Assembly (NCBI GenBank): GCA_963669155.1
Contig: OZ022585.1
Span: 4,809,024-4,873,023 of the forward strand
DNA from: Arbacia lixula
Taxonomy: Eukaryota; Echinodermata; Echinoidea; Arbacioida; Arbaciidae
Length of the DNA stretch: 64,000 nt
Direction: 5' to 3'
Shown in pieces: positions 3,229 through 52,899 of the stretch. The notes below the pieces were generated by a model. It made no database searches and was not told the origin of the DNA. It saw only the letters and a program-made list of their open reading frames with translations. Position 1 is the first letter of the stretch. Every line of letters starts with the position of its first letter. The translations under genes were made by a program, and so were the position numbers.

Positions 3229-6200
3229 ATGAATCCCCAGCCAGCAGCTCCCCCACCCCAGTCGGTGCCCTCACTGGTGCCCATCACATCAGCTCCGGCC
3301 CCCGCCCAGGTGGCTCCCACCAAGCCACCCGTGCCCTGCAAGACTCTCCAGGAAACCATCAAGGCCATTGAGAACCAGATCACTGTGAGTCAGTTTTTTT
3401 CTTTCATTTTTATCTTCATTTTTTCATTTTTTCATTTTTTCATTTTTTCATTTTTTTTTTTTTTGGGGGGGGAGGGGGGGAGGGCAATTTTCTTTACTGA
3501 CCAAACATAAGAGGTAGAGAGGGAGTTATTTTGTTAACTGTACATTGGGACCTTTCACACTCAAACTTGAAAACAAAACAATAGGCAGTGTTTGTGGTTG
3601 ATGGAAATGACTCTGCTTGATATTTTACAATGCGATTTTCATTACCTACTTGACATGTGCCTCCCCTTTACGGGTTATTTTGGTGGCTGTAATTACCAGG
3701 ATGAAACTGCTCTCAGCCCCGTGTTATTTAATTCATTTGTGTGTTTCCTTGTACAATTTTCAGTGTTGTTCTGGGTGTATATTTGAATGTAACAGTTTAA
3801 TGTGGAATTATGTGATCAATGTGGCATTGTGTGAGGCCAGCAATGACAGTGAGACTTTGATAATGATTGTTGATGTAAAGAATTTGCATTTTTTCCAGAT
3901 TGCCTAAAAGGGCAAATTACATAATTGTCTGGAATATATTGCATGATATGTGAACGTAGAGTTTAGAATATTGTTGCTCTTTTCATAACTATTCCTTGAG
4001 CTTAGTCTTAGAATTTATCAATGTGGTAAAGAAATCTTAAACCTTTCAACGCCAGCTTGGAAGCACTTCAATTCGTGTCATTGTATTAATGATACAATTC
4101 CATGATTCCACGATTTTTTTGGTACCTTTTCTAATATACTTGAGTGATGTAGGAAGAGTAATTTATGTTATTTTGATTTCCATCATGTCAGTTCATGGAA
4201 GGCCAGACCTGCATTATTACAGTATCAGAATGAAGTCATGATGATTTTTTTTCGAAGCAACAAGAATTTGAACTTCACCGAGTTACATTGCATAGAAAAG
4301 CCATGGAAAATGGACATGTATGGACATTTAAAACAAAGTGTGTCAGCCTGCCATATGTCATTGACTTTCTCATGAAGTCATGATGTTTCTTGTCTCCCTC
4401 AGTGGTCTTTTCATACAGGTTTCGCTGTCCATTATTTTATTTTCCCTCTGCTGAATGCTAACCGTACCCTCTCTACCCTGTGTGTGTGCTGTGCGTGTGT
4501 AGCTGATGGAAGGGCTTGGCCAGCTCAACGGCAAGCAGGAAGGCGACCTGGCCAAGCTGAGAGAGCTCCACCACAAAGCACTGCAGGAACAAGAAAGGGT
4601 AAGCCCGTCTGGGCCCTGTTGCATAAAACTTACCCTTAATGGTAACTGCCGTGAATGGTTGCTACCAGGCTAACATCGTTTGATAGCCAATCAGGGCCCC
4701 ATTGCATTAAACTTACTATTATTGGTAATAGGCCTGAGTCGAATCGATTATTAAGCTGTTGTTCTATCGATAACGTCGAACTCCGATTTCGTTTTGATGA
4801 ATTTGATGTATTGACGAAATTACCAAATTGATTAGAAAACACAAAATCTTTTGTTTGATAGTCCTGTTATACACAATTTATCTTCATATTTTCACAATTT
4901 TAATTTGCTTACTTTGACTGATAGTCTAAATATTTGCAGTCGCGTCTCGTCGCTTTGCGCCCGAGTTATGAAGTGAAACTTTCCAACCGATCTAAGTTTT
5001 CAATGAACTTCATAATCATGAAAAAAATATGAAATTTGATGGAATAAAACGTAAGATATGAAACAGTTTTGAAATCATAGAAACGATAAACAGATCGTCT
5101 ATTCAATTCTGACTTGACTCTGGCTGGTGTTCTATAAACATGATATTCGCTATACATATTCATGAAGGTCCAATCCATGTATGGCAGAAATATTCGCTAG
5201 GGCCCACGTGTAGTTTTTGAGATATCATTAGATTTCTATGGGGCTTGAAATTAAGATTTTGAGTCAGCGAACTGCAAGCAAGGCAAATACGCATGCGCAT
5301 TTGCTTTGACTGGCTAGGTTCGTGAATATTTTGATGGGCGGAACAGCTGATCGCCAATTTCATGTGTGCGACTTCATGGATTTGGTATGGTTTTTTTGAG
5401 TTTTGGGAAATGTTCTTCATTAAAAATATGTTGTATGAGCCTGTTAGGCCGAACACATGCAGTAATAAAGAAGTATTTTGACAATCGATGGCAATCATGA
5501 TCAAACACGATGTACTAAGACCGAAGAATCAGCTCACTGCACTGACTCGTCGTGGGTCGGCCCTTGCTACGGGTGTTCAGCTGCAGGCTCAGCCAGTGAA
5601 CGCTGCGTAAGTATCAATGCTGGTATCGCACAACATGATTTTGAATATGTGGGACGCAGGCGTAACATCGTGTCATCTTCTTCAATTCAATTCTGACCTG
5701 AGTCTGGCTGAGCGAATATCTTCTTGAGATTTCGTATAGATCAATAAGTCATTTATTATCCGGTACATGATCATACCTTAGCGGGCCACCGGCAAACATT
5801 TCAGGAATTTAGACGAATTCTAAGCCAATATTTGCTCAGTTTTCGTCGTCAAAATACCGCTAGAATTTAACATTTTCTGATATTAAAATTGTTCAGATAT
5901 GCATATGAGTATGCTTGTATGTTTAGTAGGATAAATGTCCAAAGTTTATTTTTTCAAAGAAATATGTATTCCGGGATATTTTGGCAAGAAAAATGTTTAC
6001 TTTTTTTCGCACTGTGCGAAAATATGTTGTTCACTTTTTGCAAATGAGGTACCACTGTCACTGGATTTCGGGTGGTAATTGGGGTGCTGCACCGCGCCTG
6101 GATATTTGTGTGGGCAACTGTTCACACTTGATGCCATGAAGCAAACACAATCTGCATTGTGTAGTTTATTTAGCCCTGGACTTAATTTCCCTAAGCCCAG

Positions 6201-9200
6201 TGTACTTTTCGGTGAATTAGACTTTAAAGGGAAAGACACCCTAAAGTGAGGTTGGTGTTAATATAAGCAACAGCATGAAAGAAACATATTACTGAAGGTT
6301 TGCCATAAATTCATTAAAGGATAAGAAAATTAAAATATTTTTAGGGTTTAATTTTGTGACAACAGTTCTCTCCCAATTTTGTGTACTTCTTCTTTGGAAA
6401 ATATCAATTTTCTCTAAAGGATATTTATTTTACCTGCATCTTTAGACTTTGTGCTTTTACATTCCTTCATCAAAAACAGAGAAAGAGAAATTTGTAGAAT
6501 TAAACAGCACACAACATATGGGAGCGCATCTCCTACGTGACGTCACAATTTAAAGATTTCAAAAAGTCATACCGGTAACTTTCTTACCCAGTGACAGATA
6601 TTTGTTTTATCTTCATCAATATGTTGCTTACATTTTTGCACTTTTCTGCTATAGTTACACCAATTTAACTTCAGGGTGGATTTTCCCTTCAAGAAGAGCC
6701 CAGGGAACCTCCTCTTGCTTGTTATTACTGTACTATTCCCTTTGCATATGAGTGATTTTGTAAGGTAGGATGAGTTTTTTTACATCAAAGAAGAAGACGA
6801 AGTGTTTTCATCTCATCCCAGTTATTAGGCAGTGTTCGTATATGTCATGTCATGTGGTGACGGGCAGGTAAAACTAAAGATTACATACATGTCTTTCCTG
6901 TTTTGGTCCTTACAGTTGCGAGCAGAGAAGATAGCCAACTTAACACCGATCCATCAGCAGCCCAATTCTGCCACCCAAGCCATCAAGTCTATAGCCTCCA
7001 GTAGCAATAACAACAGCAATGCTCAGGTAATGCTCCAACTGGTATATCCATTATAGACATTCAGTTGATTTTACAGCAGCAAGGCACTAATTTAGAGTTT
7101 GTAAGTTTTGTCTTATGATACAAATAATCAAACATATGAGCTCAAAATGTACTTTTGATGTAAGCCTGCCCTTTTCATTCTGAGTGTCCTGTATTTCAAG
7201 AGGAAAAAAACATGATGGTTAAAAACAGCCCGTCCCTTTTTCAGATCACCACAAAACCATCGAAACATTGGCAAAACATATAGAGAAGTGTTAGCAAGCT
7301 GTAGATTCATAATTTGAAACTGATACGCAGTGTAAAATTCAAATAATGCACATAAACAACGTCTGATTAATAGTCTTTACCTCAGGCTCTTAGCAGTTTG
7401 TGTTGAAATATCTGCTTTATTGATTAATCTGTGTATTAAATTATAAAATGCATTATGAAAAAAATTGTTCTGTAGAAGGGATCATCTCCAAAGTTTGGTA
7501 ATTACTCATGAAATTAGGATTTCACACATGCATAATAACCACATAGATACTGTAACAAAGACTAATACTTTTTTCGTAGTACGAAAAAAATAGGTTTGAA
7601 ATTTAACAGCTGAAATTTTAACATATATACAGAAAGCTTCAACATGCTATATTCTTAGAAATGGTCTTGAATCACACTTTCTTCAATTTACGATCGTGAT
7701 AGAAGATTTCAAATTTTAAGCTTGCAAAAGGGACGGACAATCTTTAAGATAATGCTTACCACTTTAAAAGCCCATACAACTGAGCTCTTATGGCACGATA
7801 TCATTTATAGAGGGCGCTATTTAAGGCGGCGGTCCTATCAGCCCCATCCTCAAGATAGGTAAAACTTTGACAGTGGTGATCCTCGCGCTTGCGATATTGG
7901 CAGCAGTCTGTGATATGCTACGGCCCATGTACACAAAGTGAGTGTTGTGTGTAGGTATGTGTGAGCATTGTAGCATAGCCATCTGACCGAATTTTCATGC
8001 AGCTTTGGTCAAGTTTGTAAACCAGTCCGACGAGCATGTAACATGCACAAATAATGTGTACAGGTCAACAGGCCTTTTGCAAAGCCTGTGCGCACCTCTA
8101 GTACCAAACGATACTGAGGATCGTGCAATTTGAAGATGTAAGACTTTTAATCTTGTGCAGATGAAATAATTAGATTTGATGAAATGTTCAAATACCATAT
8201 TTGATGTTTTATGAAGTGTCTATAATTCATCCCTCTCCCTCCCCCCCCCCCCCCTCTCTCTACCCTTCTCCCCCTCCATCTCCCCCTTCTTCTCTCCCTC
8301 CCTCTCTCCCTTCCTCTCTCCATCCTACCTCTCTCCATCCCTCTCTCTCCCCCTTCCTCTCCCCCTTTCTCTCTCCCCCTTCCTCTCTCCCTACCTCTCT
8401 CCATACCTCTCTCCCTCTTCCTCTTCCCCTCCCCCCTTTCTCTCCCCTTCCTCTCTCCCCCTTCCTCTCTCCCCCTTCCTCTCTCCCCCTTCCTCTCTCC
8501 CTCTTCCTCTTCCCCTCCCCCCCTTTCTCTCCCCTTCCTCTCTCCCCCTTCCTCTCTCCCCCTTCCTCTCTCCCCCTTCCTCTCTCCCTCTTACCTCTCT
8601 CCCTTCATCCTCTCTCTCTCCATCCCCTCTCTCACTCCCACTCCCTCACCCCCACTCTCTGTATCTCTCCCTCTCTCTCTTTATAGCTAAGTGCCAGTGG
8701 CAGCAGTACAGGTTCTCATTCATTGCAGCATTCCTCATCGAGTGTGCGAGAAGCACCCAGGTCATCCCCTATCTCCATGTCTGTGGGAGCCAGTGGCGAT
8801 GCAGGCAGAGATATATCAAAGGTATCAAAAACCCTATGTCTCCATGTATGTAGTAGCCAGTGGCGATGTAGGCAGAGATATATCAAAGGTATCAAAAACC
8901 CTATGTCACCATGTATGTAGTTGTGGCGATGCAGGCAGAGATATATCAAAGGTATCAAAAACCCTATGTGTCCATGTATGTAGTTGTGGCGATGCATGCA
9001 GAGATATATCAAAGGTATCAAAAACCCTATGTCTCCATGTATGTAGTAACCAGTGGCGATGCAGGCAGAGATATATCAAAGGTATCAAAAACCCTACGTC
9101 GCCATGTATGTAGTAACCTGTGGCAATGCAGGCAGAGATATATCAAAGGTATCAAAAACCCTATGTCTCCATGTCTGTGGGAGCCAGTGGCGATGCAGGC

Positions 9201-9971
9201 AGAGATATATCAAAGGTATCAAAAAACCTATGTCTCCATGTATGTACTAGCCAGTGGCGATGCAGGCAGAGATATATCAAAGGTATCAAAAACCCTATGT
9301 CTCCATGTATGTAGTAACCAGTGGCGATGCAGGCAGAGATATATCAAAGGTATCAAAAACCCTATGTCTCCATGTATGTAGTAGTCAGTGGTGATGTCGG
9401 CAGAGATATATCAAAGGTATCAAAAACCCTATGTCTCCATGTATGTAGTAGCCAGTGGCGATGTAGGCAGAGTTATCTCAAAAGTATCAAAAACCCTATG
9501 TCTCCATGTATGTAGTAGCCAGTGGCGTTGTAGGCAGAGATATATCAAAGGTATCAAAAACCCTATGTCTCCATGTATGTAGTAGCCAGTGGCGATGTAG
9601 GCAGAGTTATCTCAAAAGTATCAAAAACCCTATGTCTCCATGTATGTAGTAGCCAGTGGTGATGTAGGCAGAGATATATCAAAGGTATCAAAAACCCTAT
9701 GTCTCCATGTATGTAGTAGCCAGTGGCGATGCAGGCAGAGATATATCAAAGGTATGAAAAACCCTATGTCTCCATGTATGTAGTAGCCAGTAGCGATGCA
9801 GGCAGAGTTATATCAAAGGTATCAAAAACACTTTCCTTGTTTCCACACTCTGACATACTTTATGTCTCCAGAGTATTTAAAAAAACAAATGCAGCACTGC
9901 TTTTTACACTTGCCTTGAATATGTCTATGATGATCTATGATGATGACACCTTCCGTGGCCAAGATAAAGGT

Positions 9972-10003
<32 letters not shown>

Positions 10004-13000
10004 GGGGGGGGGGGTCAAAATAATTCCCCTTCCCCCCCCCCCCCCCCCCCCCCCCCCCCACTTCCCAACCCCCAATGCCCTGTTAAACTTTCTCTCAAAA
10101 GCCTGGTCACAATAGGGCTGAAAACTAATATCCTCTTTGTGGAATCACACTGACGGTTGAAATTTGGCTCATTCTCTTTGATCATAGTCGATGTTAGCAG
10201 AGCATTGCAATCACAGCTTAATTTGGAACATCGCTTCCTAGTGCTGGATACAGGGACATTTCTTGTAAACATGTCATAAGATATAATTATGTGGACAAAT
10301 TGAAGATATTGTTACTTTCACCCCCAATGCCCTGTTAAACTTTCTCTCAAAAAGCCTGATCACAATAGGGCTGAAAACTAATATCCTCTTTATGGAATCA
10401 CACTGATGCTTGCAATTTGGCTCATTGCAATTTGGCACACGAGCCTGAGAGGCAAAATGTGGTTCCGTTTTTCATGCATGATTTTAAGGGATAGTCCACC
10501 CTTGATTTCAATAAAAGCAGAAACATGAAAGAAACATATTAGTGAAGGTTTAGCAAAAATCTGACAAAGCATGAGAAAGTTATGATCTTTTAAACTGTTA
10601 ATTTTATGTCACATGCGAGGTGCTCTTCCATATGGTCTGTGCCATATGATTCCATAAATTGCTTTTTTTCTGTTTTTGATGAAGGCATAATTTTTTCAAA
10701 CAGGCATGTCTGTAAAAATGTGTTTCTAAAGATGTATCAAGTGCACAGGTAAGATTATGTTTTTCCCTTTAAGAAAAACAGTATTTTCAAGAGAAATAGT
10801 ATGTACACTACATATGAGAGGGCATCTTGCCCGTAACGTCACAAAATCAAAATTTTATTTTAAACAATCATAACTTTCTTATCCTTTGACAGATTTTCAC
10901 CAAACCTTCACTAATATGTTTCTTTCATGTTTATGCTTTACCTAAAACCAACTTAATTAAAGGGTGGACTATCCCTTGAAATCCTATATCTCTGATGAGT
11001 TGATATTTCACTCAAAGGGATACACTATCCATAATGGACACCGAGGTCAGAACTTAGGGAACATTTGTTTTCCAATCCCTGATTCCATTATTTGTTGGTA
11101 TTGTGTTCATCCTGTCTCAAGATCCTGAACAAGAAGAAGATCCAGGACCTGGTGCGGGAAGTGGACCCAAACACACAGCTGGACGAAGATGTAGAGGAGG
11201 TATGTACAAGGGGCTGAAAGCAGAAGCTTATAGTGTCACCGCTCGGTGCCAGGACTACGCTGACTCAAGCAGGATACAAACACAGTGTCTGGACTCTTCT
11301 GCACGGAATAAAGGGAGTATAGTGTACTGGGAAGACAAAAAGGCCTTCACAAGGTGATCGTCACCAATCTTCTTGCCAATGGTCTTAAATTCATGCATGT
11401 ATTGTCCATTTTAGAAACTTGCTGAAAGTTATTTGCCCTCATGTGATCCACATTTGGAATAATTAGTGATTAAATAACAAATCCTTGATATGTTCGGCCT
11501 GAACAATTTGAGGATATGTGATTTAATCACGAATTACTCCAAATGTGGATAATTTTAGGGCAAATAACTTTCAGCAAATTTCTAAAATGGACAATACATG
11601 AATTTAAGACCATTGGCAAGAAGATTACTTATGATCACCTTTTTAAGGCTGTTTGTCTTCCCAGTACAGTATATGCCCTTTAAATGGGATACCAAAGCTA
11701 ATGGGGAAATAATGATTGTCTGTAGCAGCTGTAAAATAGTAAGGAAGACATGTTCTCCAGGGAGTGGAGATGGTGCACACACTGTGTGCATGCGTGTGAT
11801 CTAGCTAGTGGAGATGGTCTTCTCTAGAAGACACAATCATGATTGTAATGTAGCGTTCTTAAACACTTGGTACTGGGTATTCTTAATTTGTGTTTATTGT
11901 GAATATACAGACATACAATGTACACCTGCTCTTTCATAACATACACATGAATACATGCTTTAAAGGGAATATACTGTACTGGGAAGACAAAAATTCTTTC
12001 AAAAAGGTGATCTTGAGCAATCTTCTTGCCAATGGTCTTAAATTCATGTATTGTCCATTTTAGAAACTTACTGAAAGTCATTTGCCCTCAAATGATCCGC
12101 ATTTGGAGTAATCAGTGACTAAATCGCAAATCCTATAATGTTCGGCCCGAACATTTTGAGGATTTGTGATTTAATCATAAATTACTCCAAATGTAGATCA
12201 TTTGAGGGCAAATAACTTTCAGCAAGTTTCTAATATAGACAATACATGAATTTAAGACCATTGGCAAGAAGATTGCTCACGATCTCCTTATGAAGGGTTT
12301 TTTGTCTTCCCAGTACAGTATATGCCCTTTAATACATATATATCATTCTAAAAGTATTCGTGAAACAGAAATATTTATTACAAATCCATGTCATTCTCCC
12401 ATCCATTCCAACAAATGGTGACCACATGATTCTATTTTTCAGATGCTGCTTCAAATAGCAGACGACTTCATTGAGAATGTTGTGACTGCGGGGTGCCAGC
12501 TTGCCAAGCACAGAAAGTCATCCACACTAGAAGTGAAAGACGTCCTCATCCACCTTGGTCAGTTCATGTCTCTGCAGCTTCCAGCTTCCATTTGCTTTGC
12601 TTATATCATCTATTGTCACTCTACAAAACATTCAATTCTTTGATTAAACTCCTGCCCTAATGCTGACTTCTAAATACAAATAAGCAAGAGAAATTTATGT
12701 CTTGCGAACCGTTCCTATTTACTGTGTCATCATAAGTCAAGTGAGTGCCTGTTGGATGCTGTCTTTGCCCAGCCAATAGTAGATACACGTTCAAGTTCTC
12801 TATGTACCTCTCTTTTTTTGCTCATTTCCAACAGATTGATCAATCAATTTGAGTACTTTGAAGATTAACAGCAAAACAAAGATTATATCTATTGTCCCTC
12901 TACAAAATATTGAATTCTTTCTTTTATCTCTCCTCAACCAATGACAGATAGCCTTTGATTTCTCCTTGACCAATGGTAGATATTCCTTCATCTCTCCTCG

Positions 13001-13346
13001 ACCAATGACAGATAGCCTTTGATCTCTCCTTGAACAAACATATATAGCCATTCATCTCTTGTATGAATTTAGCCCAATGGTGACTGAAAAGAAGCTTTTT
13101 TGCAAATACCTTTATTTCATGGTAACATGGTATTATGGAATACCAAAAGATAAAACTCTTTTCATAGCAGGTTAAGATGGACGTTGAAAATATACGCTTT
13201 GAATCCTCATCCCCTCAGAGCGCAACTGGAACATGTGGATTCCTGGCTACACGTCTGAGGAGCAGCAGAAGTCTCACAAGCGGCCTGCGTCTACGGAGGC
13301 TCACAAGCAGAGGATGGCGCTCATACGCAAGACGCTCAAGAAATGA
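3229..13346 (+). CDS. TAF12: TFIID/SAGA histone-fold subunit TAF12, seven coding exons
   Basis: TAF12 pairs with TAF4 (TFIID) or its SAGA counterpart through an H2B-like histone fold, in RNA polymerase II pre-initiation complexes. Coding exons are 3229-3384, 4503-4598, 6916-7026, 8687-8821, 11122-11199, 12443-12557 and 13219-13346 (TGA 13344-13346). All junctions are GT-AG and in phase, giving 272 residues. The histone fold spans about residues 167-240 and includes LVREVDPNTQLDEDVEEM, ADDFIENVV and HRKSSTLEVKDV. It is followed by NWNMWIPGY and the conserved tail TEAHKQRMALIRKTLKK. The 166-residue N-terminal part is Pro, Gln and Ser rich and makes the protein much longer than the roughly 160-residue human form. 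The start was chosen as the first ATG after a good 3' splice site ending at 3203, implying a non-coding upstream exon. Exon 4 abuts two unusual repeat tracts. The histone-fold exons are near certain; exons 2-4 rest on splice sites and phase. Confidence 0.93.
3400..3483 (+). repeat. TTTTCA repeats followed by poly-T and poly-G runs
   Basis: A short array of TTTTTTCA-like units runs into a T tract and then a G tract (about 3465-3481), just inside TAF12 intron 1. The rest of the intron to 4502 shows no other recognisable feature. Confidence 0.75.
4609..4730. mobile_element. MITE-like family C element, partly nested
   Basis: The element begins GGGCCCTGTTGCATAAAACT, a terminal sequence shared by about ten elements in the window, and continues with TTAATGGTAACTGCC and an AGCCAATCA block. 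A second terminus (GGGCCCCATTGCATTAAACT) starts inside it at about 4696, so two copies appear joined. It starts only ten bases after the exon 2 donor of TAF12. Intron 4731-6222 holds nothing else I can name. Confidence 0.6.
6223..6690. mobile_element. Family A inverted-repeat element, about 470 bp
   Basis: The ends read TTTAAAGGGAAAGACACCCT on the left and AGGGTGGATTTTCCCTT on the right. Each arm carries a block resembling ATGAAAGAAACATATTACTG and a GACGTCAC block, in opposite orientation. It matches 10486-10978 in layout and lacks any transposase frame. It lies in TAF12 intron 2. Confidence 0.65.
7219..7747 (+). mobile_element. Family F element, about 530 bp, copy 1
   Basis: Inverted termini are visible: CCGTCCCTTTTT near 7230 and AAAAGGGACGG near 7735. 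A very similar copy in the same orientation lies at 29500-30027, with the same internal order: GAAGTGTTAGCAAGCTGTA, CAACGTCTGATTAAT, GGCTCTTAGCAGTTTGTG and CAATTTACGATCGTGATAGA. Only small substitutions and indels separate the two, suggesting fairly recent spread. There is no long open frame, so it is non-autonomous. It lies in TAF12 intron 3. Confidence 0.7.
8229..8686 (+). repeat. Long polypyrimidine tract ending at the TAF12 exon 4 acceptor
   Basis: About 455 bases are almost purely C and T, in irregular repeats such as CCTTCCTCTCTCCC, and end in TTTATAG, the 3' splice site of exon 4. The tract is an extended version of the normal polypyrimidine tract. Mirror symmetry and purity could allow triplex (H-DNA) structure; that is inference. 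The open frames across it (Ser/Pro on one strand, Arg/Glu/Gly on the other) are composition artefacts. Confidence 0.9.
8790..9831 (+). repeat. 67-bp tandem array copying the TAF12 exon 4 end and its splice donor
   Basis: The unit contains GGCAGAGATATATCAAAG followed by GTATCAAAAACCCTATGTC and CCAGTGGCGAT. The last coding bases of exon 4 and its donor at 8822 form the first unit. Equivalent donor positions follow at 8888, 8951, 9014, 9081, 9148, 9215, 9282, 9349, 9416, 9483, 9550, 9617, 9684, 9751 and 9818. Spacing is 67 bp except for two 63-bp units. Units ending at 9483 and 9617 carry a weakened donor (AAAAGTATC). Because 67 is not a multiple of three, all three frames stay open for long stretches, giving spurious open frames. 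Confidence 0.95.
9969..10061 (+). repeat. (GT)n microsatellite with poly-G and poly-C runs
   Basis: A GT dinucleotide run (about 9970-10004) passes into poly-G (to 10014). After a short spacer a poly-C run follows (about 10032-10059). The sequence CCCCCAATGCCCTGTTAAACTT just after it recurs at about 10321, pointing to a small local duplication of about 250 bp (10068-10140 and 10321-10400). Confidence 0.85.
10486..10978. mobile_element. Family A inverted-repeat element, most complete copy
   Basis: The ends AAGGGATAGTCCACCCTT and AAGGGTGGACTATCCCTT are perfect inverted repeats. They extend inward as long imperfect arms of about 200 bp, which include AACATGAAAGAAACATATTA and its complement. The centre carries a CACATGCGAGGTGCTCT block in both orientations. 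No coding capacity is visible. Other copies or fragments are at 58, 725, 6223 and 36366, and a short end lies near 54510. It is a non-autonomous DNA-transposon-like element in TAF12 intron 4. Confidence 0.75.
11309..11693. mobile_element. Family B near-palindromic element, copy 1
   Basis: The element begins about 110 bases after the TAF12 exon 5 donor. The left arm carries TGTACTGGGAAGACAAAA, CTTGCCAATGGTCTTAAATT, CTTGCTGAAAGTTATTTGCC and a TTCGGCCTGAACA centre. The right arm repeats these as reverse complements and ends CCCTTTAA. Nearly the whole 385 bp can fold on itself. Other copies are at 11959, 39615 and 58208. Confidence 0.8.
11959..12332. mobile_element. Family B near-palindromic element, copy 2
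   Basis: It starts TTTAAAGGGAATATACTGTA and ends TACAGTATATGCCCTTTAA, with arms complementary almost to the centre (AATGTTCGGCCCGAACATT, itself a near-perfect palindrome). It lies in the same TAF12 intron as copy 1, about 265 bases downstream, in tandem. Confidence 0.85.
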
Positions 13347-18712: not shown

Positions 18713-21700
18713 TTAGAAGGCATATCCGCCCTGGGGTTGCGCACACTGCTGGGCTGAGAACTCGTAGCTCTCTCCGCCTTCCTTGGTGGACGGGGCAACA
18801 GTGATGTCCTCCTCCTCCTGTTAGGGGATACAGTGAAGTAGAGGGAATATGTGGTGGGAGGGAGGAAGGGAAATGAGATGAAAAGGGAGGAAACTCACAG
18901 ACAGGAGAGAGAAAGAAAATGAGGGAGCAGAGATATGGAGTGTTGCACAAAGGGGGAGGGAGATAATAAGAATGGATTAATGACAAAAGAAATCAGATTG
19001 CTACTCCATTCTTATCTTCCTCATAAGCAATACGACGTTAAATCACATTTGCGAGTCTGGCTCATGGATTGTAAATATATGTAAATTGTGAATCCAAAAC
19101 GTTAACGTGTTGATAACAGCAAGAAAACATGATTCCATCAGACAATTCTGTACATAAAAAACACTATAGGACACAATGGACAGACAAATCACACAACTTT
19201 AGTTGCGTTTGTTTTTATTGTTTGGTTACAACCAAAGAGTATTGGTCCCAATCACCTCTATAACAAGAGTTGCCTGTAATTTCACAAAAAGTTTACCTCT
19301 CCTAGAAAAGAAAAGACACAAGCGTTTGGCTGCTAACTGACGGGACAAGGACGAAGGGTCGTAGGCTGTGCTTCTTACCTGAGGACAGAAGTACTTTTCA
19401 ATGATGGTGAGAGCCATCTCGTAGACGCGCTCATTCTCATGCTGCTGCAGGGCCTCGATCCTATCCAGCCCACCGGCCTCCTCTACCATCAGGGATGCAG
19501 CCTCCAGCTGGCCTAGCTTCTCTGCAGCCTGTCAGAGTCAAGAACAAATCAAGACAAGAGTCAACACACACCCCTACATTCATGTTACAGCTACAATACA
19601 GCGGGAGTCCTGTCCAGATAAGGGATCAGGAATCTTCCAGTAAGAATTCCGCTCCAGTTTCCAGTTTAAGAACAAGAATTTTAATTTACTGAGATCAGAT
19701 GTCTTCTTCAGCCAATGAGGGTTAAATTCATTGAGAATCTGATTTAGCACAAGAACTGGTAACCAATCATAAAGTCATTTGTAGCTTTCAGACAGCTTGG
19801 TGAAACGCCCCCCAGTATTAGGCTACACATCTATGCATTGCGGTAACTTACAGCCAGGATATTGGTGACAGCATCCAGAATGACCTCGATGATCTTGGCC
19901 TCCTTGATGGTGAGCAGGTCACACAGAGGCTTGATGCAGCCAGCCTGGACCAGCTGCACAATCTGCTCCACAGAGCCCCCAGACGTCAGGTTAGTCACGG
20001 CCCAGCACGCCTCCTTCTGGCTCTTGTAGTCACCCTGTGGGTCACAAGTTTCAGCAGAGAAAGCACAATATATCATTGCCCTTATAACAGGCACTGCACA
20101 CCAGTAAGGGGACTTTCATGCACAACACTTGACAGCCTCAGTATTATCATAATCATAATCCTTACTTAGGCAGTTTTTTGTGTAATTATTTAATGTATGT
20201 TTATCAATTTGTGTATGAATTATTCTATTTATTATGAGTTGTGGAAATTAAATGATAAGTACAAATTACAATAAAGAGCTTATTATTGTAATTTAGAAAG
20301 GAAAGAACATGAAATATCAATCCATATGGTCACAATACTAGGCCAGCAGTCAAGCTCTGTCCTTGTGTGTACTGGAGGGCATTTAATGAACATTGTGAGC
20401 ATGCACTGACCAAATGGTCAGTGCTGACAACTTCAGTGAAATCCTCGGTTTTGATTGGCTGAGAGGCACTAGCCTCTGACTGTTACTATGGTAACTGTCG
20501 GAAAAAGACAGCTTGTCAGACGAAAAATGTTCATGAAATGCCCTCCTGACTTGTAATGCTAGTGGACATACCGTTGCTAAGACGTTGACGAGGGGAGCGA
20601 GGAGGCCAGCGGCCACCACGGCCTGGATCTGCTGGACGTTGCCTGCAGTGATGTTACTAATGGTCCAGCAAGACTCCTTCTGGATGTTGTGCTTGGGGTG
20701 CTTCAGCAGGCTGACAAACAGCGGCAGGCAGTTGGCATCAATCACCATCTGGTGGGGGGGAGGGAGATGGGATGGGATGCATGGTAGGTGTTGGGGAAAG
20801 AGTAGGGAGGAGAGATGGAAGGGGAAAGAGGAGAGGGTAGAGGGAGTGGGAAAAGGAGGTGGTGAGGGGAGCAGAGGGGGAAGAGGAAAAGGTGGCAGGC
20901 AAGTTTGAAAGGAGAGTTGGGAAGGGAACAAGTGGAGGTACAAAATGAGTCCATTGGATTTTTATGCTAATTATGAGACTACTAAGAAAGTCATGAAATT
21001 ATGCAACGATACCTTTATGTTTCAAAGCCACCGTGCGAGACATACTGAAAACGGTTTGAACACACCACAAGAATACAAAAAATATATATATTATGTTGCA
21101 CTCAATTTGTCTGTAAAAGGAACCATTTTTCTTACCTGTGTTTGCTCATCACTGCCAGTCACAATATTTCCAATTGTTCTGAGAGCGGGTGTCTGCAATT
21201 GAGATACGAAAAGAAAGTGTGAATGACAACTAAAGCATTGCATCAAATGACAAGAATTCCACAACTGCACGTGTGTGTTAGTGTAATAGTTTATGCGCAT
21301 GCAGATACCTTCAAGGGAAAAAAGATCATAGAAAGGGTAATTTCTGTGAACTTTTAAAACAAAGTAAAAAATGTACATTTAAAACGTTTTGAAATTACAC
21401 TTTGTTCAGCTGGGCTAGTAATTGGTAGTGCTTTTACAGGGAAATGGGGTGTAGATTCATGCAGATGTTTTCACAATGAGTGAAAGACATAGCGTGGAGA
21501 AGGGAAGATACAATGGTGACAAGAATAAGTGTCATAGAGACAGGGGGGGGGGTAAATGAGAAACAGCTGTAAACTCACAGGGTGGGGTGGGGACTATGTA
21601 TTTCTACTTACAATAACAGAGATCTCATTGCTCTTGAGAAGTTCCACCACTCTGCCCACAACTCCTGCCTTGATGACATGCTGTAAAAAGTAAAGGAAAA

Positions 21701-24700
21701 CAGCATGTACAAATAATCAAAGTGAGAGGTTCCATATGTCTTAAACAAAATGGTCATTTTTGCCCCCCCCCCCCACAGGGTTAGCGTCATGTTATTTATA
21801 ACATTTTATATGTTAGGCTTGCAAAGGGATACAAGGCCTTTGAGGGGTTGGGATTTATCCTCCATGACTTGCACATCTTCAAGAGAAAGACGAGAAAGAT
21901 TAGGCTATATTAACAATTGCTTCATTACAAAGCAGGGCACAAAATGCAAAACAAATTTTCAGTTCTGCATGGTCTGCCAGCTAGTGAAGCCCATACCTCA
22001 ATCCTATCGTTGCTGCCGTCGGTGAGGTAGGAGAGGGCCCAGCACGAGTCCGCTACAATCTCCTTATCACAGTGGTGGATGAGGGTCTGTAGGACGGGCA
22101 GCACGCCGGTCACTACCTCCTCCCCGGGCGGTGGGCTCTTGTTGCGGCACAGGTTGGATAGGGTCCAGGTCACGTTGCGCAGGAAGGGCACCTGCACACC
22201 ACATCAATAAATGAGCATTTCATCAAATTTGTCATGAACATGAACACTGTGCCAAATACACTTGAATTTAACATTTCCTGCAGTTAAAATTCCACCCAAT
22301 CAAAATGATTCACAGTACATTAGACTATCAAACTGCACACAAATATAATTACTAAGTTTCATTTGTATCAAATTATTTTTGTATCTACAATTTCAATTTT
22401 CTGCACCATGAATGACGTCATGGGAAGGGATTGGTGAAAAAAAAGCATCTCATTGTCAATGAGCTTTTGTCAATTAACACATAAAAATAACACTGAGCAC
22501 TTAATTTAGAGACAGATTGTCAGGATACTTACTGGAGTTGTAGATTGGATAAGTGCTAAGAGAGGTTGCAGGATGCCATTACGGGTAACAATATCCCTCA
22601 TTTCTGGGCCATCACCTGTGGATAAATGAACATGAAAACATCATCATTTAGACGTCAAGTGAGCACAATCCACCAATAGTTATATGATATACCACACTCC
22701 AACTTAGCATTTTACCACACTACAAATCCACCTTTAATCTTAATTTTGCTTAATCTTGAAAGAGCTATTTCTCCTTGCTGTAATAAACAATTAAACAATG
22801 ATCTTTCAAATGGAAATACAACCTTCTCTCAAAAGTTGGTGTGGTGAATGGGTACCTTGCAAGAGTACATATTCCTGATCTGCTCGACTACCTAGTTTTT
22901 AGCAGGAGACTGTAATATAAATGGATTATCAAAAGATTGAAGGACTTACCTGCAATGTTTCCCAGGGCCCACACGGCTTGTTCACTAACATTCTGATGCG
23001 TGGAAGATAGGAGCTTGACAAAGGCTGGAATAGCTCCCTCACTGACCACTGTCTTGGTCTGCTCAGGGGTGCCAGATGCTATGTTGGTCAGGGCCCAAGC
23101 CGCCTCAAACTGCATGGACGGGCTGTGTAATACGGAGAGGTAAACCATTAACAGCTAACTCTCAATATACATCAATCACGGATGCAAGGTTTCATTGCAT
23201 TGAGGCAATTGTTCAAAACATAAACCTTATGGGGCTGTAATCCACAAACACCAAGAATGGTTATGAGAAGATTTTATTCGAAGCTACTCCTGTCAGCACT
23301 ATGAAAAATAAAAATTGCCTGTTATAAAAAAGAAAAATACCAAAAAACACACATGGCTTTGTTAAGGCATTGGATTAGCCATCCTTCTGAAAAACAATCT
23401 TGGAAAAAATAAAAGCAAACATTTTTGTCAAGCAACATGTATACGAAGTTACATAGTTTTAAAAATAATAATCATGCTAAACAGAGCATTTACCGGTAGG
23501 TAAATACATGTCACTACATGTCACTTAGAGACCGTTACATTAATTTCTATCTCTCCAGATTCAGGTTATTGTGTAGACATCGTTCCTATACCCATCCACA
23601 CAAGTGGGCTTAATAGCTCCTACATCATTTCCACAGGAACTTAGCAGTACACAATCAAATACTCACTTATCATGATGGCTCAGGAAGCCGACAAACTTGG
23701 GCACGAGGCCAGCTCTGATGATGTTATTGATAGGAGGCTGGCGCTCACGGGACAACATTCGTCTGAAAAGAGATAGGGGAAAGAACATTGAACATATTAT
23801 TGTAAACCAATGGACATCGAGTGAAAATATTGACAGTCCATGTAGCATTTGGCTTTAGAATTGATCAACTGCCAAAGCAACAGCTGCATTGATTATATAG
23901 ACATCCATGCTCCTTTGCTGTTTTACTGGTAGTGTAGAATGAGTGCAAGCTCCACGTGGAAAAGTTGTGCTAATGCAACATGGACTCGGAACATACTAGG
24001 TACAACGATGCGATGAGCTAATATTGGAGTCTGCCAATTAAGTAGGAACTAAGATGAAACCATAGGTTTGAGAAAAAATCATTCAAGACGGTTGAAAATT
24101 AATGGGAAAATAGTTGATACATGTATAATATATTTTTACCTTGCTGTTTGTACTGCATTGAACTGAGTTGTGGAATCACTGCTGTTGATTGCTTTGCAAA
24201 TTTCTGGAATTGTCATTTGCACGGTAGGCTGTAAACAAAAAAAGAAGAAGATAAGATAAGGTTTGAAAGCTTTTCACCTCATTTTTTTCTAAAGAGCGGA
24301 GATTGGAATGGGTAAATGCATATACCCACATATCTCGGCAACATATGTGTGATATGTTGGCGCTTACATTACTTGTGACATATCTTGCATTTCAATTTTT
24401 TATTGTAATCAAATTTCATTTATTATCACTTAATTATGTAGTTAACTTCATGCACAATCCTTTCTCCCCAATTATTCATTCATGTAATATTGGGAAAGTG
24501 AATATTTCAGGGATGAAGCTTCTTATGATTTTATAAATAACTTTGTAACATATGAAGTTGCAAAAGCCATATTTTCCATTTCGTTTCACTTAATTGATTT
24601 TTTGTAATCTCTCATAACTGTTTTTGAAGGGTTATTTTTTTTCCTTTTTTTAATTGGAGCTCATAACACAGTGTTAAGCCCTAAATCAATTGCAGTGATT

Positions 24701-33990: not shown

Positions 33991-34364
33991 CACCGCTTCT
34001 CAGTATGTAATACTTGATGCGCTGTTTATGCAGTTTCAACTTCACTTCGACTGCAAGCCGTACAGCCAACTAGCATAACAGTTAACACAATGTAGGTCAT
34101 CCCGATCAGCATACAATGTTTACGGGCTTTCATTTTATTCATGTCGCAGGAAAATTTACCATTCGTTAATGATGCTAATGTATGTTAGCACTACTAGTTA
34201 TGGATGAGGCTATTTTGAAATTTCGGTTCGGTTCAGTTAAATTGTTTACTTCTATCTTTTGTCGTCTGCTGCAGTCATCAACGCTTGGGGCATCTACGGA
34301 TCCCTACCATCCAGTAGTACATCAGTTGCATTTCCATAATTACGCCACTGTCACCAGGAGAAAC

Positions 34365-37300
34365 ATGGCTGCCCCGAAGGGTGCATTCGTGCGCGTTGCC
34401 TCGGCTTTCCGGAACTCAATTTCACGTAAGTGTATCTGTCGGTTACTTTCGAAGAGCATAACTGTTGATTCATACGGGATATTATTTTGTTTGCATGAAA
34501 AAATGTATGGCAGTGTGGGGTATGATCGAAGGGAGGGTACGTGTTTGAGGGGATAGGGTGTATTAGCTAGGGAGGGAGTACGTGGAGAGAGTGTATAATC
34601 ATACTATGGCATGAGGGGAGGGTGTTTTTGGCTGGAGAGGGTGTTTGAGGGGAGGATCGAAGTATGAGGGGATGTGGGTATAGGGAGGGGGTATGAGGGG
34701 AGGGGGTATAAAGGGTATGAGGGGAGGGTGTTTGAGGGGAGGGGGTATGAGGGGATGAGGTATGCATGAGGGCCGGAGAGCTAGAGAGGGGGTATGCATG
34801 CTGAGGGGAGGGGGTATGAGGGGATCAGGGGGTATGCATGAAGGGAGGGTGTTTGATCGAGGGGAGGGTGTTTGAGGGGAGCTAGGAGTATGAGGAGATG
34901 AGCTAGGGTGTATAGGGAGGGGGTATGAGGGGATCAAGGGTCTATGAGGGGAGGTGGATCGAGGGGAGGGCGAGGGGAGGGGGTATGCATGAGGGAAGGG
35001 TGTTTGAGGGGAGGGTGTTTGATCGAGGGGAGCTCGGGTGTTTGAGGGAAGGGAGTATGAGGGGATGGAGGTGTATAGGGAGGGGTGTGAGGGGATCAAG
35101 GATGTAGGGAGAGGTATGGAGGGGGTATGATGGGGGAGGTTGTTTGAGGGGAGAGGGTTGAAGGGAGGGTGTTTGAGGGGAGGGTGTTTGAGGGGAGGGT
35201 GTTTGAGGGGAGGGTGTTTGATCGAGGGGAGGGTGTTTGGTCGAGGGGAGGGAGTATAATGAGGGATGAGGGTGTATAGGGAGGGGGTGTGAGGGGATCA
35301 AGGATGAAAGGGAGGGGTATGGAGGGGGTATGATGGGGGAGGTTGTTTGAGGGGAGGGTATGAGGGAGGGGATATGATGGGAGGGTGTTTGAGGGGAGGG
35401 TGTTTGATCGAGGGGAGGGTGTTTGAGGGGAGGGGTATGAGCTAGGGAGGGGATATGATGGGTGTTTGAGGGGAGGGCGGGGTATGATGTGAGAGTGTTT
35501 GAGGGGAGGGTGTATGACGGGAGGGTGTATGAGGGGAGGGTGTTCGAGGGGAGGGGGTATGAGGGGAGGGTGTATGAGGGGAGGGGATGTGATGGGAGGG
35601 TGTTTGAGGGGAGGGGTATGATGGGAGGGTGTTTGAGGGGAGGGTGTTTGAGGGGAGGGTGTTTGATTGAGGGGAGGGTGTTTGAGGGGAGGGGTATGAT
35701 GGGAGGGTGTTTGAGGGGAGGGTGTTTGATCGAGGGGAGGGTGTTTGAGGGGAGGGGTATGAGGGGAGGGTGTTTGAGGGGAGGGTGTTTGATCGAGGGG
35801 AGGGTGTTTGAGGGGATCGAGGGGTATGAAGGGAGGGGATATGAATGGGAGGGTGTTTGAGGGGAGGGTGTTTGAGGGGAGGGTGTTTGATCGAGGGGAG
35901 GGTGTTTGAGGGGAGGGGTATGAGGGGAGGGGATATGAATGGGAGGGTGTTTGAGGGGAGGGTGTTTGAGGGGAGGGTGTTTGAGGGGAGGGTGTTTGAG
36001 GGGAGGGGTATGAGGGGAGGGTGTTTGAGGGGAGGGGTATGAGGGGAGGGTGTTTGAGGGGAGGGGTATGAGGGGAGGGTGTTTGAGGGGAGGGGTATGA
36101 GGGGAGGGTGTTCAAGGGGAGGTTGTAAGAGAGAATCGAGGGTGTATGAGGGGAGGGGGCATGATGAGGTGATGGTGTTTCAGGCCGGGAGTATAAGAGG
36201 TGGGTTTAATGAAGGGGGAGGGAGTGAGTGGAGGGGGTATGAGGGGTGGGAATATGAGGGGAGGGCCGGGTTTGGGGGGGATATGAAGGAAGGGGGGTAT
36301 AGGAGGGGGTGGGAGTGGAGTCGGTATATATGAAGGGAGGGCATATGAGGGGAGGGGACGTATGAGGTGAGAAAAATATTAGTGAAGGTTCGATGAAAAT
36401 CCATCAAGGGATAAGAAAGTTATTTGATTTTGAAGTTCCAATTTTGTGACGTCACGTGCGAGCTGCTCTCCTATGTGTTGTGTACAATATATATATAAAT
36501 TGCTCTTTTTCTGTTTTTGACAACAAAATGATTTTTTTTCATACAGGTATGTGTGTAAAAATGTATATCTGATGACGAATTCAGAGGTACACGGGTGCAC
36601 ATTATTTTGAGAAAATGCTCATTTTCGAGAAAAAAATTTGTACACAACATATAGGAGAGCACCTCACACTTGACGTCACAAAATCAAAATTTAAAATATC
36701 ATAACTTCCTTATCCCTTGATGGATTTTCATCTAACCTTCACTAATATTTTTCTTTCATGTGTCTGCTTTAATTGAAACAAAAGTAATTTCAGGGTGAGG
36801 TATATCCCTTTAACAGCTGTCAACGTAGCTGTTTGGGTGCAATTACAAATTTGAGGTTCAAGATTGATAAGCTTCTCGGTTTGTACCTCATTTTAACTGG
36901 TCTGTTATCTTCTTTTCAGCGGAGGGTCCTTTCCAGCCGGAGAAGGGGCGCTACCACCTGTATGTGTCCCTGGCCTGCCCCTGGGCCCACCGCACCCTGA
37001 TCATCAGGAAGCTGAAAGGCCTGGAGTCTGTGCTGGGATACACTGTGGTGGACTGGTTCATGGGTGAAAAGGGATGGACCTTCACAGACAAGGTAACAAG
37101 TTAGCTCAGTGTTTCCACTTTCCAAATATAAAATTCTTGATGTGTACTATAATTTTCTGGAATTTACCACTATTTCCTTAATTAGTACAAAAAAGTGCCC
37201 AGAGTCGCTATAAGCGGACACTTTATGCTTTCCTTGATTATTCTCAGATTTCCTGAAGTTCCTTAGAATTATTTTACATTCTGCAAATTTCCTTGACAAC

Positions 37301-46165: not shown

Positions 46166-46468
46166 GTATCATATCATATCATATCATATCATATCATATC
46201 ATATCATATCATATCATATCATATATCATATATCATATATCATATATCATATATCATATATCATATATCATATATCATATATCATATATCATATATCATA
46301 TATCATATATCATATATCATATCATATCATATCATATCATATATCATACCATATATCATATCATATCATATCATGTCATATCATATCATATCATATCATA
46401 TCATATCATATCATACCATCATGTCATATCATAACATAATATCATATATTACATCATATCATATCATA
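46166..46468 (+). repeat. ATATC/ATATCAT microsatellite
   Basis: About 300 bases alternate between a pure 5-bp unit (ATATC), a pure 7-bp unit (CATATAT, about 46222-46318) and the 5-bp unit again, with decay at the right edge. Confidence 0.95.
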
Positions 46469-47057: not shown

Positions 47058-50000
47058 TGCCAACAAGTCTTTGTTGTTTCTTGGTACCATGCAGCTTGGC
47101 AGTGAGGTAGAAGAAGACGGGCAAGACGCACACGAAGACGCTGATGGCTACCACGGAGACAAAGTCCTTGTCTGCAATACGGCAGCCACTCTCCTTCCAC
47201 TCCATGCGAGTACGGTTCATCTACAGGCAATTGCATTCGCTTTGTTATTCATCTCTTTTTTTTGTGTGAATCGTCCCCTGCGTGTCACCCGTTTTTGACT
47301 TTAAACAAAATGATTAATTCATACACTTTGACTTCCTCATGAATTTTCCCATTAATTTCTTTGCATGAATGTGTATTTTTGTTTCAAATTTCTATGATTA
47401 TTGTACATTGCATGTACTAATTTCTGAAAATTTGCTGGGCAATTACGCAGTATTAATCATTCCAGAAAAAGATGGAAGTAATATCATGCTGCGATTTAAA
47501 ACAATCAAAAAGAGTTCTAACAACACTCAAAAATCAATTAATTTCAATTATAACAAGAACATATAAGCCACCGTGCTCCATTGGTTGTTATGCAATAGAC
47601 CGGTTTACTAACATATTCAAATTTTATGCATACCAGTTTAACAAAGGTTGCCCCTGACAACCGGAAACCTTGCCCAAGGTTTGCCCGACATAGCAACTAA
47701 TGTATGCAAAGTGGATTCCAAGTACTGAAATACCATTGTTAGATACGGGTTAATGGAATAACTTGTTACTAGGCCCCAAGGGAAGAAACATCCATAAATT
47801 TGACTCATTAGTAAACCGGTCTATTGAATACTTCACTAAATACCCGTCACACTTATTTGGAATCAGCAGGAATCAAGCAGAACCAGCCGGAATGAAAATT
47901 TTTCAAAATTCGAGCCACATTCGGGAGGTAATTTCAAATTGATCCAAATATGTAAAAACGCCGTTCGATTGCGGCATGACCTCCTCAGTGACTCCTCAAT
48001 GCTCACTGACATTGCAGCAACAGCTAGCCGTGCTTCTATGCGATTCGATTTTCCCACAAATGCGATGGGAATGTTTCGAATGTTGTTGAAATGTCATCCA
48101 AATACTTGGAATGCAGTCAGAATGCTGTTGGACTGCACTTTGAATACCGTTCCATATTATCCAGTTCGAATGCACCTCAAAAGTTTTGGTATGACCTTTG
48201 ACTTACCAGGTCAATAATGTCCATGCACAGCTCTTCGGCATCTTTGCTGTCGTAGAACTTATTCAAATCACAGTACATCTTGCTGCAATTGTTGCACAGT
48301 GTGACATTGCTTGTATCTGGAATGGGACTGGTCTGCGAGGAAAAAAAACAGTGACAGTATGAAAAACTCTCACATTTGTTAGCATTTTTTGGTACTCTTT
48401 CTAATAAGCTCATTATTTTGTAATATAATTGTTCTTTTATGATAAATCTTCATAGAACGGTAAAGTTTAATTCATTTGAGACATCATATTTCTAATCATA
48501 TCCCTCATGATACCGTCCTGCCCTTTGATTGGTTAAGAGCACTGCACATGACCAAATGAAGAACCACTGGAAAAGAAACCTTCTCTGAAAAAGTACTATT
48601 TGCCCCCCCCCCCCAAATGAATAAGAAAAAAAGAAGTATCGCACCCCTTAGTTCATATTTTCAAGATGTCAAAGGGCCGAAGAGTCTTCTCATGATGTCA
48701 AGAGGGCCGAAATGTGCTGTCTTGGTGTCAAATGTCCACATGTCCATATTATAATGTAAGCGCAACATGCAAAATCTACAAGATAATTCATTTGAGCTGC
48801 CAAAATTTCAAAGGGTCCCTTTCAAAGTTTGTCCGTGTAACAAACGACCATTTCTAGAGCTAGCAACATTGAAATTCAACAATCAGGAAGATTTGGGGAA
48901 ATTTCATCAGAAATCAGAGAGACGTCTATCAAAGGCACACAATCTAATGACAATAATCTATCAGTAATCAGGGAGATTGAGTGATGTGACGAAATCCAAT
49001 GCAGTACTATTGGTTTTATTTTCAGTGAGTCTCCTGCGAAATCAGGGAGACTTGGCAGCTCTGCATTTCATAAGCATTTCACTGCTTCAAAACAATCCCA
49101 ACAGCTGGCAAATGTCAAAGGGCTTGAAACCCACCAAATTTGATGGAACACTGTAGACTGATATGCCTCCACCCTCATACACAAATACCTGTACTACAGT
49201 GTTTCCACAATCCCTCCTTAAAATATTTTCTTGTCTGATGCCTATTTGAAATTTTACTTTGACATTCTGAACACACAACCCAATCAGATTTACCTTAGAG
49301 GGTAGAACCCATTTTGAGACCTTTATTTCAAGTTTGATTATAATTGGTTGACTATTTCTTGAAGTATTGCTCACATGCAGTGACATTTTTATGGCTTACA
49401 CCCTGACATTTGACCTGTGACCCATCTGACAAGAAATCATAAGTTGATTGTCCTGTCATATATCACTATTTCATTCAGTTTAGTGAAATTCAGCCTCACA
49501 TTTGTTTTACACAAAGACAGACTTTGTGACAGAGGTGTAAATATATATATCAGTACAAAAAGATGAGTAAAAAGAAACCACAAGCATGGAATTTAAGATT
49601 CTTCTTTGTTTCTTTACTAGTCAGTATTTTACTTACCCCTCCATTTTCAACAAAACATGCCTTCGTTCTGAGGTACTGGTATAGGAACTCTGTTGTGGTG
49701 TTGCTGGGGTAGAATTTGTGATCTTTTTCATGGTAGCATCCTAAGCAAAGAAAATATGGAAGGATGCTGTCTCAAAGCTGGGTATGCCGTCTGCAAATAT
49801 TTTTCAGCGAGGAGAACACTTCAGCTCCAATCAAACATGAACTAGAAAAATTTGACTGCGCGCAGTCAACTGGTACTGTATGGCACCGACCTACCTCCTG
49901 CACATACACTGCAGCATTGCCAAAATTGCCAACATTTTTGTAAAATGTCATCCTCGTATGCCTGGAAAACTTGCTATTTCGCTATGACATACAACTTAAT

Positions 50001-52372: not shown

Positions 52373-52899
52373 ATTGGTTTGTGTTGCCGTTGATCTATCC
52401 GTTGATGTCCCAGTGACTGCTGAATAAGTGATAAAGGCTGTGGTAAGTTTATACATTTGCACAAACAATAATAGTCAGCACTGATGTGTTTCTCAAAATT
52501 AAGCTATAAAAAAAATTACATGTAAGTTCTAAATACTGAACTGCTTGGATCCTGTCGCATCTATTGTTGTCAAGCGGATGATCCTTGAGAATAATTGTGA
52601 CTTAAGAAACCAAAAAAAAAGATTTTTCCTGTTTAAAAATGGGCCGCAGTTTTAAACTGCTGTATATTTTGTCCAGTTCAGCATGAACTCCTCGTCCGCG
52701 ATCAACAACCGCGTGTAGCATCGCGACCTTCACAGCTCTTCAGCCACGTTCCTGAAGTCGCGACTCAGCCGCAAGTCTCCGCCTCATCATCCATAGCGTG
52801 AGCCCCTTCTTTCGTTGTCATGATCATACGTCATCATTGGACTCTCAACTTATTTCTTACGTAAGCATTATTTAGTCATGTTAGTCCATCGCACTCATC

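Follow-up and report, generated by a model that had tools for sequence, protein, structure and literature searches.

In the human genome, IFI6 (6-16, G1P3) carries a minisatellite that begins at the end of an exon, and its unit is approximately 12 bp long, so the reading frame is kept. This minisatellite, which contains multiple splice donors, was described by Turri, Cuin and Porter in 1995, and according to the part of PMC4526556 that deals with it, two downstream repeat units act as donors, giving rise to three mRNA species. Other roles are described in the sections of the literature covered here: PMC2812944 reports that minisatellites have driven gene changes within segmental duplications of the human genome, with an average unit of 30 bp repeated 4 times, and the minisatellite treated in PMC3039753 is part of a promoter. 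Tandem duplication of a segment containing AGGT has also been put forward as a route of intron gain (the Rogers model), for which the relevant section of PMC4974935 cites cases in fission yeast.

In the present study, we analysed a window of 64,000 nucleotides from Arbacia lixula (GenBank assembly GCA_963669155.1, contig OZ022585.1, positions 4,809,024–4,873,023), in which the end of the proposed exon 4 of TAF12 runs into a tandem array of donors. As in IFI6, the units are arranged in tandem, each with a donor, and start at an exon end; TAF12 has 16 donors, of which the first is native and two are weakened. On the other hand, the TAF12 units are 67 or 63 bp long and do not keep the frame (donor 2 shifts it, and donors 3–16 lead to a stop), whereas the frame is kept in IFI6. 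Furthermore, more than one IFI6 unit serves as a donor in mRNA; the further TAF12 donors are candidates predicted from DNA. IFI6 is the closest precedent and the sole donor array found in the portions of the literature examined, and the TAF12 array differs from it in having a long unit that breaks the frame and in lying within a core transcription gene. The locus also resembles the cases in PMC2812944 in that minisatellite growth at an exon–intron boundary may alter gene structure, but the sections of that paper considered here discuss new introns from cryptic sites and no rows of donors.

Gene model of TAF12

We propose a TAF12 gene model of seven coding exons, all on the plus strand, which are separated by GT–AG introns and encode a protein of 272 amino acids. 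A tblastn search with human TAF12 as the probe matched the conserved exons 5 (11122–11199, in which the histone fold begins), 6 (12443–12557), and 7 (13219–13346) on the plus strand of the window. The proposed coding exons 1 (3229–3384), 2 (4503–4598), 3 (6916–7026), and 4 (8687–8821) were delimited using the reading frame together with phase and splice signals, and exon 1 showed a weak match to the same probe (E = 0.60). Pfam PF03847 (the TFIID_20kDa histone-fold domain) was detected at residues 170–236 of the model (E = 3.5e-34), and in a structure search, the human TAF12 chain matched residues 150–272 (E = 2.3e-51). No match to residues 1–149 (exons 1–3 and most of exon 4) was obtained in the structure search. 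The gene is TAF12 as judged from its predicted protein, whose histone fold and C-terminus are backed by both Pfam and human TAF12, and the name given to it in an earlier, sequence-only reading of this DNA was thereby borne out.

Exon 4 is 135 nt long, with phase 0 at both ends, and encodes residues 122–166, which lie outside the histone fold. Its status as an exon is proposed because the frame is open, the phases agree, and splice signals are present. The human TAF12 alignment begins inside it, at residue 150, and is loose up to exon 5. Exons 2, 3, and 5, like exon 4, are multiples of three in length. Exon 5 is presumed to be the acceptor partner for donor 1 and for any decoy.

Several other features were observed in the window. 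A G-rich minisatellite of approximately 1.6 kb with a period of approximately 15 or 29 bp occupies 34637–36265 (GC skew of 0.72 over 34,001–36,000), and a TATCA pentanucleotide repeat of approximately 62 copies lies at 46167–46468. On the minus strand, pieces of an Armadillo-repeat gene, which we take to be importin-alpha-like, extend over 19226–22203 (the sole piece scanned, 19831–20115, matched Pfam Arm with E = 1.2e-14). Two OSTM1-like pieces, also on the minus strand, matched PF09777 at 51908–52474 (E = 9.9e-07) and at 48177–48449 (E = 3.4e-05, under the curated cut-off).

Structure and origin of the donor array

Tandem Repeats Finder placed the array at 8772–9829, with a period of 67, 15.9 copies, 92% matches, and a score of 1780. 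In a full unit, 50 nt correspond to the end of exon 4 and 17 nt to the start of the intron. Unit 1 (8772–8838; the whole array is read on the plus strand) carries the native donor at 8822, with the sequence AAG/GTATCA (the slash marks the junction), and units 2–16 (8839–9835, extending past the Tandem Repeats Finder end at 9829) carry 15 further donors, all intronic if donor 1 is used. The 16 donors are located at 8822, 8889, 8952, 9015, 9082, 9149, 9216, 9283, 9350, 9417, 9484, 9551, 9618, 9685, 9752, and 9819. They are spaced 67 bp apart in 13 of the 15 intervals and 63 bp apart in the other two, because units 3 and 4 (8906–9031), each of 63 bp, have a common 4-bp deletion.

The native 9-mer is found in 13 of the 16 donors, counting donor 1 itself. 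The weakened form AAA/GTATCA occurs twice, at donors 11 (9484, in the unit at 9434–9500) and 13 (9618, in the unit at 9568–9634), and AAG/GTATGA occurs once, at donor 15 (9752–9757), which has the consensus G at +5 and matches the consensus at 7 of 9 positions, one more than the native donor (6 of 9). Three positions distinguish unit 1 from the consensus of units 2–16; unit 7 (9166–9232, donor at 9216) carries the exon base at each of them and agrees with unit 1 at 66 of 67 bases. A change from C to A at unit position 10 creates an additional donor-like site, CAT/GTATGT, in 14 of the 16 units; it is absent from the real exon (unit 1) and from unit 7. The sequence-only reading had described 16 donors in 67-bp units built on the end of exon 4 and its donor, a native-frame stop at 8918–8920 (a TAG), two units with a weakened donor, and an exon-type unit whose exon part ends at 9215. 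Each of these was recovered here, the regular period being broken only by the two 63-bp spacings. The 63-bp units, the +5 G of donor 15, the CAT/GTATGT sites, and an AG-free tract 5' of exon 4 are features additional to it.

Arrays of near-identical units are easily mis-assembled, and units 11 and 13 are identical, so the copy number or order could partly be an assembly error. However, this is the sole identical pair among the 16 units, two units have a common deletion, and many have private changes, and we regard such an error as highly improbable.

The unit contains AGGT at its junction (AG/GT in 14 of the 16 donors), as in the Rogers model of intron gain, but the TAF12 copies lengthen an existing intron, and the units have no acceptor-like pyrimidine run before AG/GT. 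The 20 nt before the donor junction are 35–45% pyrimidine at all 16 sites, versus 55–95% at the six acceptors of the gene. A ratchet point for recursive splicing consists of a pyrimidine tract followed by AG/GT, and recursive splicing or mini-introns within the array were rejected on this composition.

The intron immediately 3' of the array may retain a trace of its origin. The 10-mer TATGTCTCCA, which spans the consensus unit boundary and contains TCTCCA, the first 6 nt of unit 1 (8772–8777), recurs on the plus strand at 9861–9870, and the intron part of the unit aligns to 9819–9875 up to TATGTCTCCA, with one mismatch before a 29-nt gap and none after it. Elsewhere in the window, any of the nine boundary 10-mers matched in 3 of 1,230 overlapping 100-bp stretches. 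The recurrence of the boundary 10-mer just past the array makes the exon boundary the probable seed of the array. On the most economical reading, the exon end and intron start may first have been duplicated between two TCTCCA hexamers flanking the boundary, and the duplicate would then have lost approximately 29 bp of its intron part before being amplified as a 67-bp unit. CCCTAT microhomology (8767–8772 and 8832–8837) was considered as the first breakpoint and rejected, since it leaves two bases unexplained and TCTCCA accounts for both.

In the reverse scenario, the array would be an older intronic minisatellite that supplied the final 50 nt of exon 4 by exon extension. The end of exon 4 aligns loosely with human TAF12, and units 1 and 7 share all three exon-specific bases, so that a unit of the exon type also exists outside the exon. 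However, the boundary 10-mer 3' of the array fits an origin in place, and one whole-genome DNA search (607 Mb, 590 contigs) found no copy of the array elsewhere, returning only this locus, with match counts that are lower bounds. We therefore consider recruitment from an older array very improbable and favour, without regarding it as proven, the direction from exon to array suggested by these sequences. This direction had been assumed in the sequence-only reading, to which the sequence 3' of the array lends some support.

Regarding the way in which the units multiplied, no lag from 2 to 8 units was significant (p = 0.22 to 0.87), and a regular six-unit higher-order repeat was rejected as the source of unit 7 (lag 6, p = 0.22). 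Neighbouring units were somewhat more alike than expected by chance (lag 1, p = 0.03, eight lags tested, uncorrected). The same reading had attributed unit 7 to conversion or higher-order duplication; the latter is not borne out by the lags, and local conversion or irregular duplication fits better.

Choice among the donors and its consequences

The products expected from each donor were computed from the gene model. Use of donor 1 would give the protein of 272 amino acids. Donor 2 adds 67 nt and shifts the frame, placing a stop 83 nt short of the last junction, and donors 3–16 lead into the TAG at 8918–8920 in the frame of exon 4, with the stop 224–1,091 nt before the last junction. Under the usual vertebrate rule, nonsense-mediated decay acts on stops located more than approximately 50–55 nt before the last junction, and by this rule all fifteen decoy products would be targets. 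Skipping of exon 4, on the other hand, is in frame and gives a protein of 227 amino acids with the histone fold whole. Reading the frame of all 16 donors bore out the proposed frameshift from donor 2 and the run of later donors into a stop. The accompanying statement that only the native donor gives TAF12 stands for donors 2–16, all of which break the frame or meet the stop, but not for exon skipping, which keeps both the frame and the fold.

Because 13 of the 16 share one 9-mer, the native donor included, strength alone cannot explain a choice among those. Donor 15 is stronger than the native donor according to a human donor matrix (scores of 7.86 and 3.79) and equal to it in U1 pairing energy (both −5.7 kcal/mol). 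For the CAT/GTATGT sites, the two measures disagree (matrix score of 6.17; U1 energy of −3.1 to −3.3 kcal/mol), so each is only a candidate donor. Among the six donors of the gene, the native exon 4 donor is the weakest by the human matrix and the fourth by U1 energy. RNA folding was also considered as a means of hiding the decoys and was rejected: in the predicted folding, donor 1 ranked only fifth (11-nt measure) or sixth (9-nt measure) of 16 in accessibility, and the weakest donors, 11 and 13, were the most open.

Intron 4 contains two further repeat structures. At 10068–10426, segments of 77 nt (94%) and 33 nt (100%) are directly repeated at a spacing of approximately 253 bp, and a MITE-like element of approximately 500 bp at 10480–10983 is bounded by terminal inverted repeats of 29 nt (90%), inside which lie inverted arms of 106 nt (81%). 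This element contains CAGGTAAGA at 10749, the donor-like site with the highest human-matrix score in the intron.

In human cells, according to the sections of PMC9225289 on competing donors, donors in exons with long flanking introns obey a cross-exon proximity rule. When two equal strong donors competed, the upstream one was used exclusively in five minigenes; when both were weak, larger exons were preferentially skipped and smaller ones kept the upstream donor. The same sections place the switch to exon definition at an intron length of 200–250 nt, with the downstream donor favoured under intron definition, and report that the higher-score donor was dominant in 86% of events; the donor-choice experiments had two artificial competing donors. 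The introns flanking exon 4 (intron 3, 1,660 nt; intron 4, 2,300 nt) are well over 200–250 nt, so under the rule as given in those sections of PMC9225289, donor 1 is expected to be used, with skipping as the main alternative. Here, we infer by analogy that the human rule would extend to this animal. Exon 4 would be recognised as an exon whose two ends are the acceptor, with its long pyrimidine tract, and the closest donor, and donor 1, which gives the 135-nt exon, would beat near-equal donors, which would yield exons of 202 to 1,132 nt. If donor 1 failed, skipping of exon 4 with the frame kept would be the likelier alternative, and rare use of a decoy would produce early-stop transcripts that are probably destroyed. 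The sequence-only reading had treated the 15 further donors as decoys; they are present, but given the published cross-exon proximity effect (PMC9225289, same sections), their competition may have been overstated.

It is also conceivable that splicing draws on several array donors, as it does in human IFI6, and that decay of the frameshifted products makes the array a brake or a tuner of TAF12 output, acting through unproductive splicing at a level set by copy number. The IFI6 precedent itself (as outlined in PMC4526556) speaks for such use, as do the 13 donors identical to the native 9-mer, the one with a better consensus match, and the position of the stop in all 15 decoy products, no less than 83 nt upstream of the last junction. 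Two wider stretches of the unit also lean slightly this way, namely positions 41–60 (3 changes versus 7.8 expected, p = 0.027) and 34–67 (9 versus 13.2, p = 0.07), both chosen afterwards and uncorrected. However, the nine donor positions showed no excess conservation (2 of 26 minimum changes versus 3.5 expected, p = 0.30), and cross-exon proximity (PMC9225289, in the sections cited) favours donor 1. Selection to keep the decoys was thus rejected on the donor positions, the two uncorrected stretches notwithstanding, and real use of several array donors seems distinctly unlikely to us. We consider it probable that the array is a minisatellite that grew from the 3' boundary of exon 4 by a short duplication and repeated unequal exchange and has been tolerated because the splicing machinery normally passes over the extra donors, which would make it a by-product and not a regulatory device. 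Counting against this explanation, exon 4 itself has little support from homology, the donor with the higher score usually prevails in human cells (86% of events in PMC9225289), and donor 15 and the 14 CAT/GTATGT sites outscore the native donor by the human matrix, but not by U1 energy.

The pyrimidine tract upstream of exon 4 and the value of the locus

Exon 4 is preceded by a pyrimidine tract of 463 bp (8223–8685, plus strand, 95% C/T), which ends at its acceptor. The AG dinucleotides at 8215 and 8685 have no other between them, and the resulting AG-free zone of 470 nt is the longest in the window outside runs of N, versus 36–84 nt at the other five acceptors between coding exons. According to the part of PMC1431707 concerned with distant branch points, human exons with AG exclusion zones of at least 100 nt show more cassette events. 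Exon 4, with its 470-nt zone, resembles such exons in this respect and may have a distant branch point, and on the length of the zone alone it is a reasonable candidate cassette exon.

Exon 4 could therefore be a regulated cassette, with the balance between the 272- and 227-amino-acid forms of TAF12 fixed jointly by the AG-free tract (through a distant branch point and PTB-type control) and by the weak, repeated donor. Such regulation would be consistent with the length of the AG exclusion zone relative to the other five acceptors, with the human cassette events in that part of PMC1431707, and with an exon of 135 nt that is in frame and outside the histone fold. However, the tract is of low complexity and a near branch point may sit at one of its 21 A residues; moreover, exons 2, 3, and 5 share a length divisible by three, so that frame alone does not point to regulation. 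On balance, we regard a regulated cassette as possible but unlikely. The presence of repeats enlarging both splice signals of exon 4 is striking, although perhaps coincidental. Were it not coincidental, both signals would have been tandemly amplified (the 463-bp tract and 16 to 30 donor-like sites), and the copy number of the donor array, varying between individuals, would set the share of TAF12 with the exon 4 linker together with the transcript loss, a proposal that we consider very unlikely.

At this locus, sixteen donors, thirteen of them with one 9-mer, stand at regular spacing in a natural core transcription gene and constitute a natural test of donor choice. Junction counts from ordinary RNA-seq would directly measure the steepness with which donor use declines as distance and exon length increase, and differences in array length between individuals, if there are any, would provide a natural dose series.
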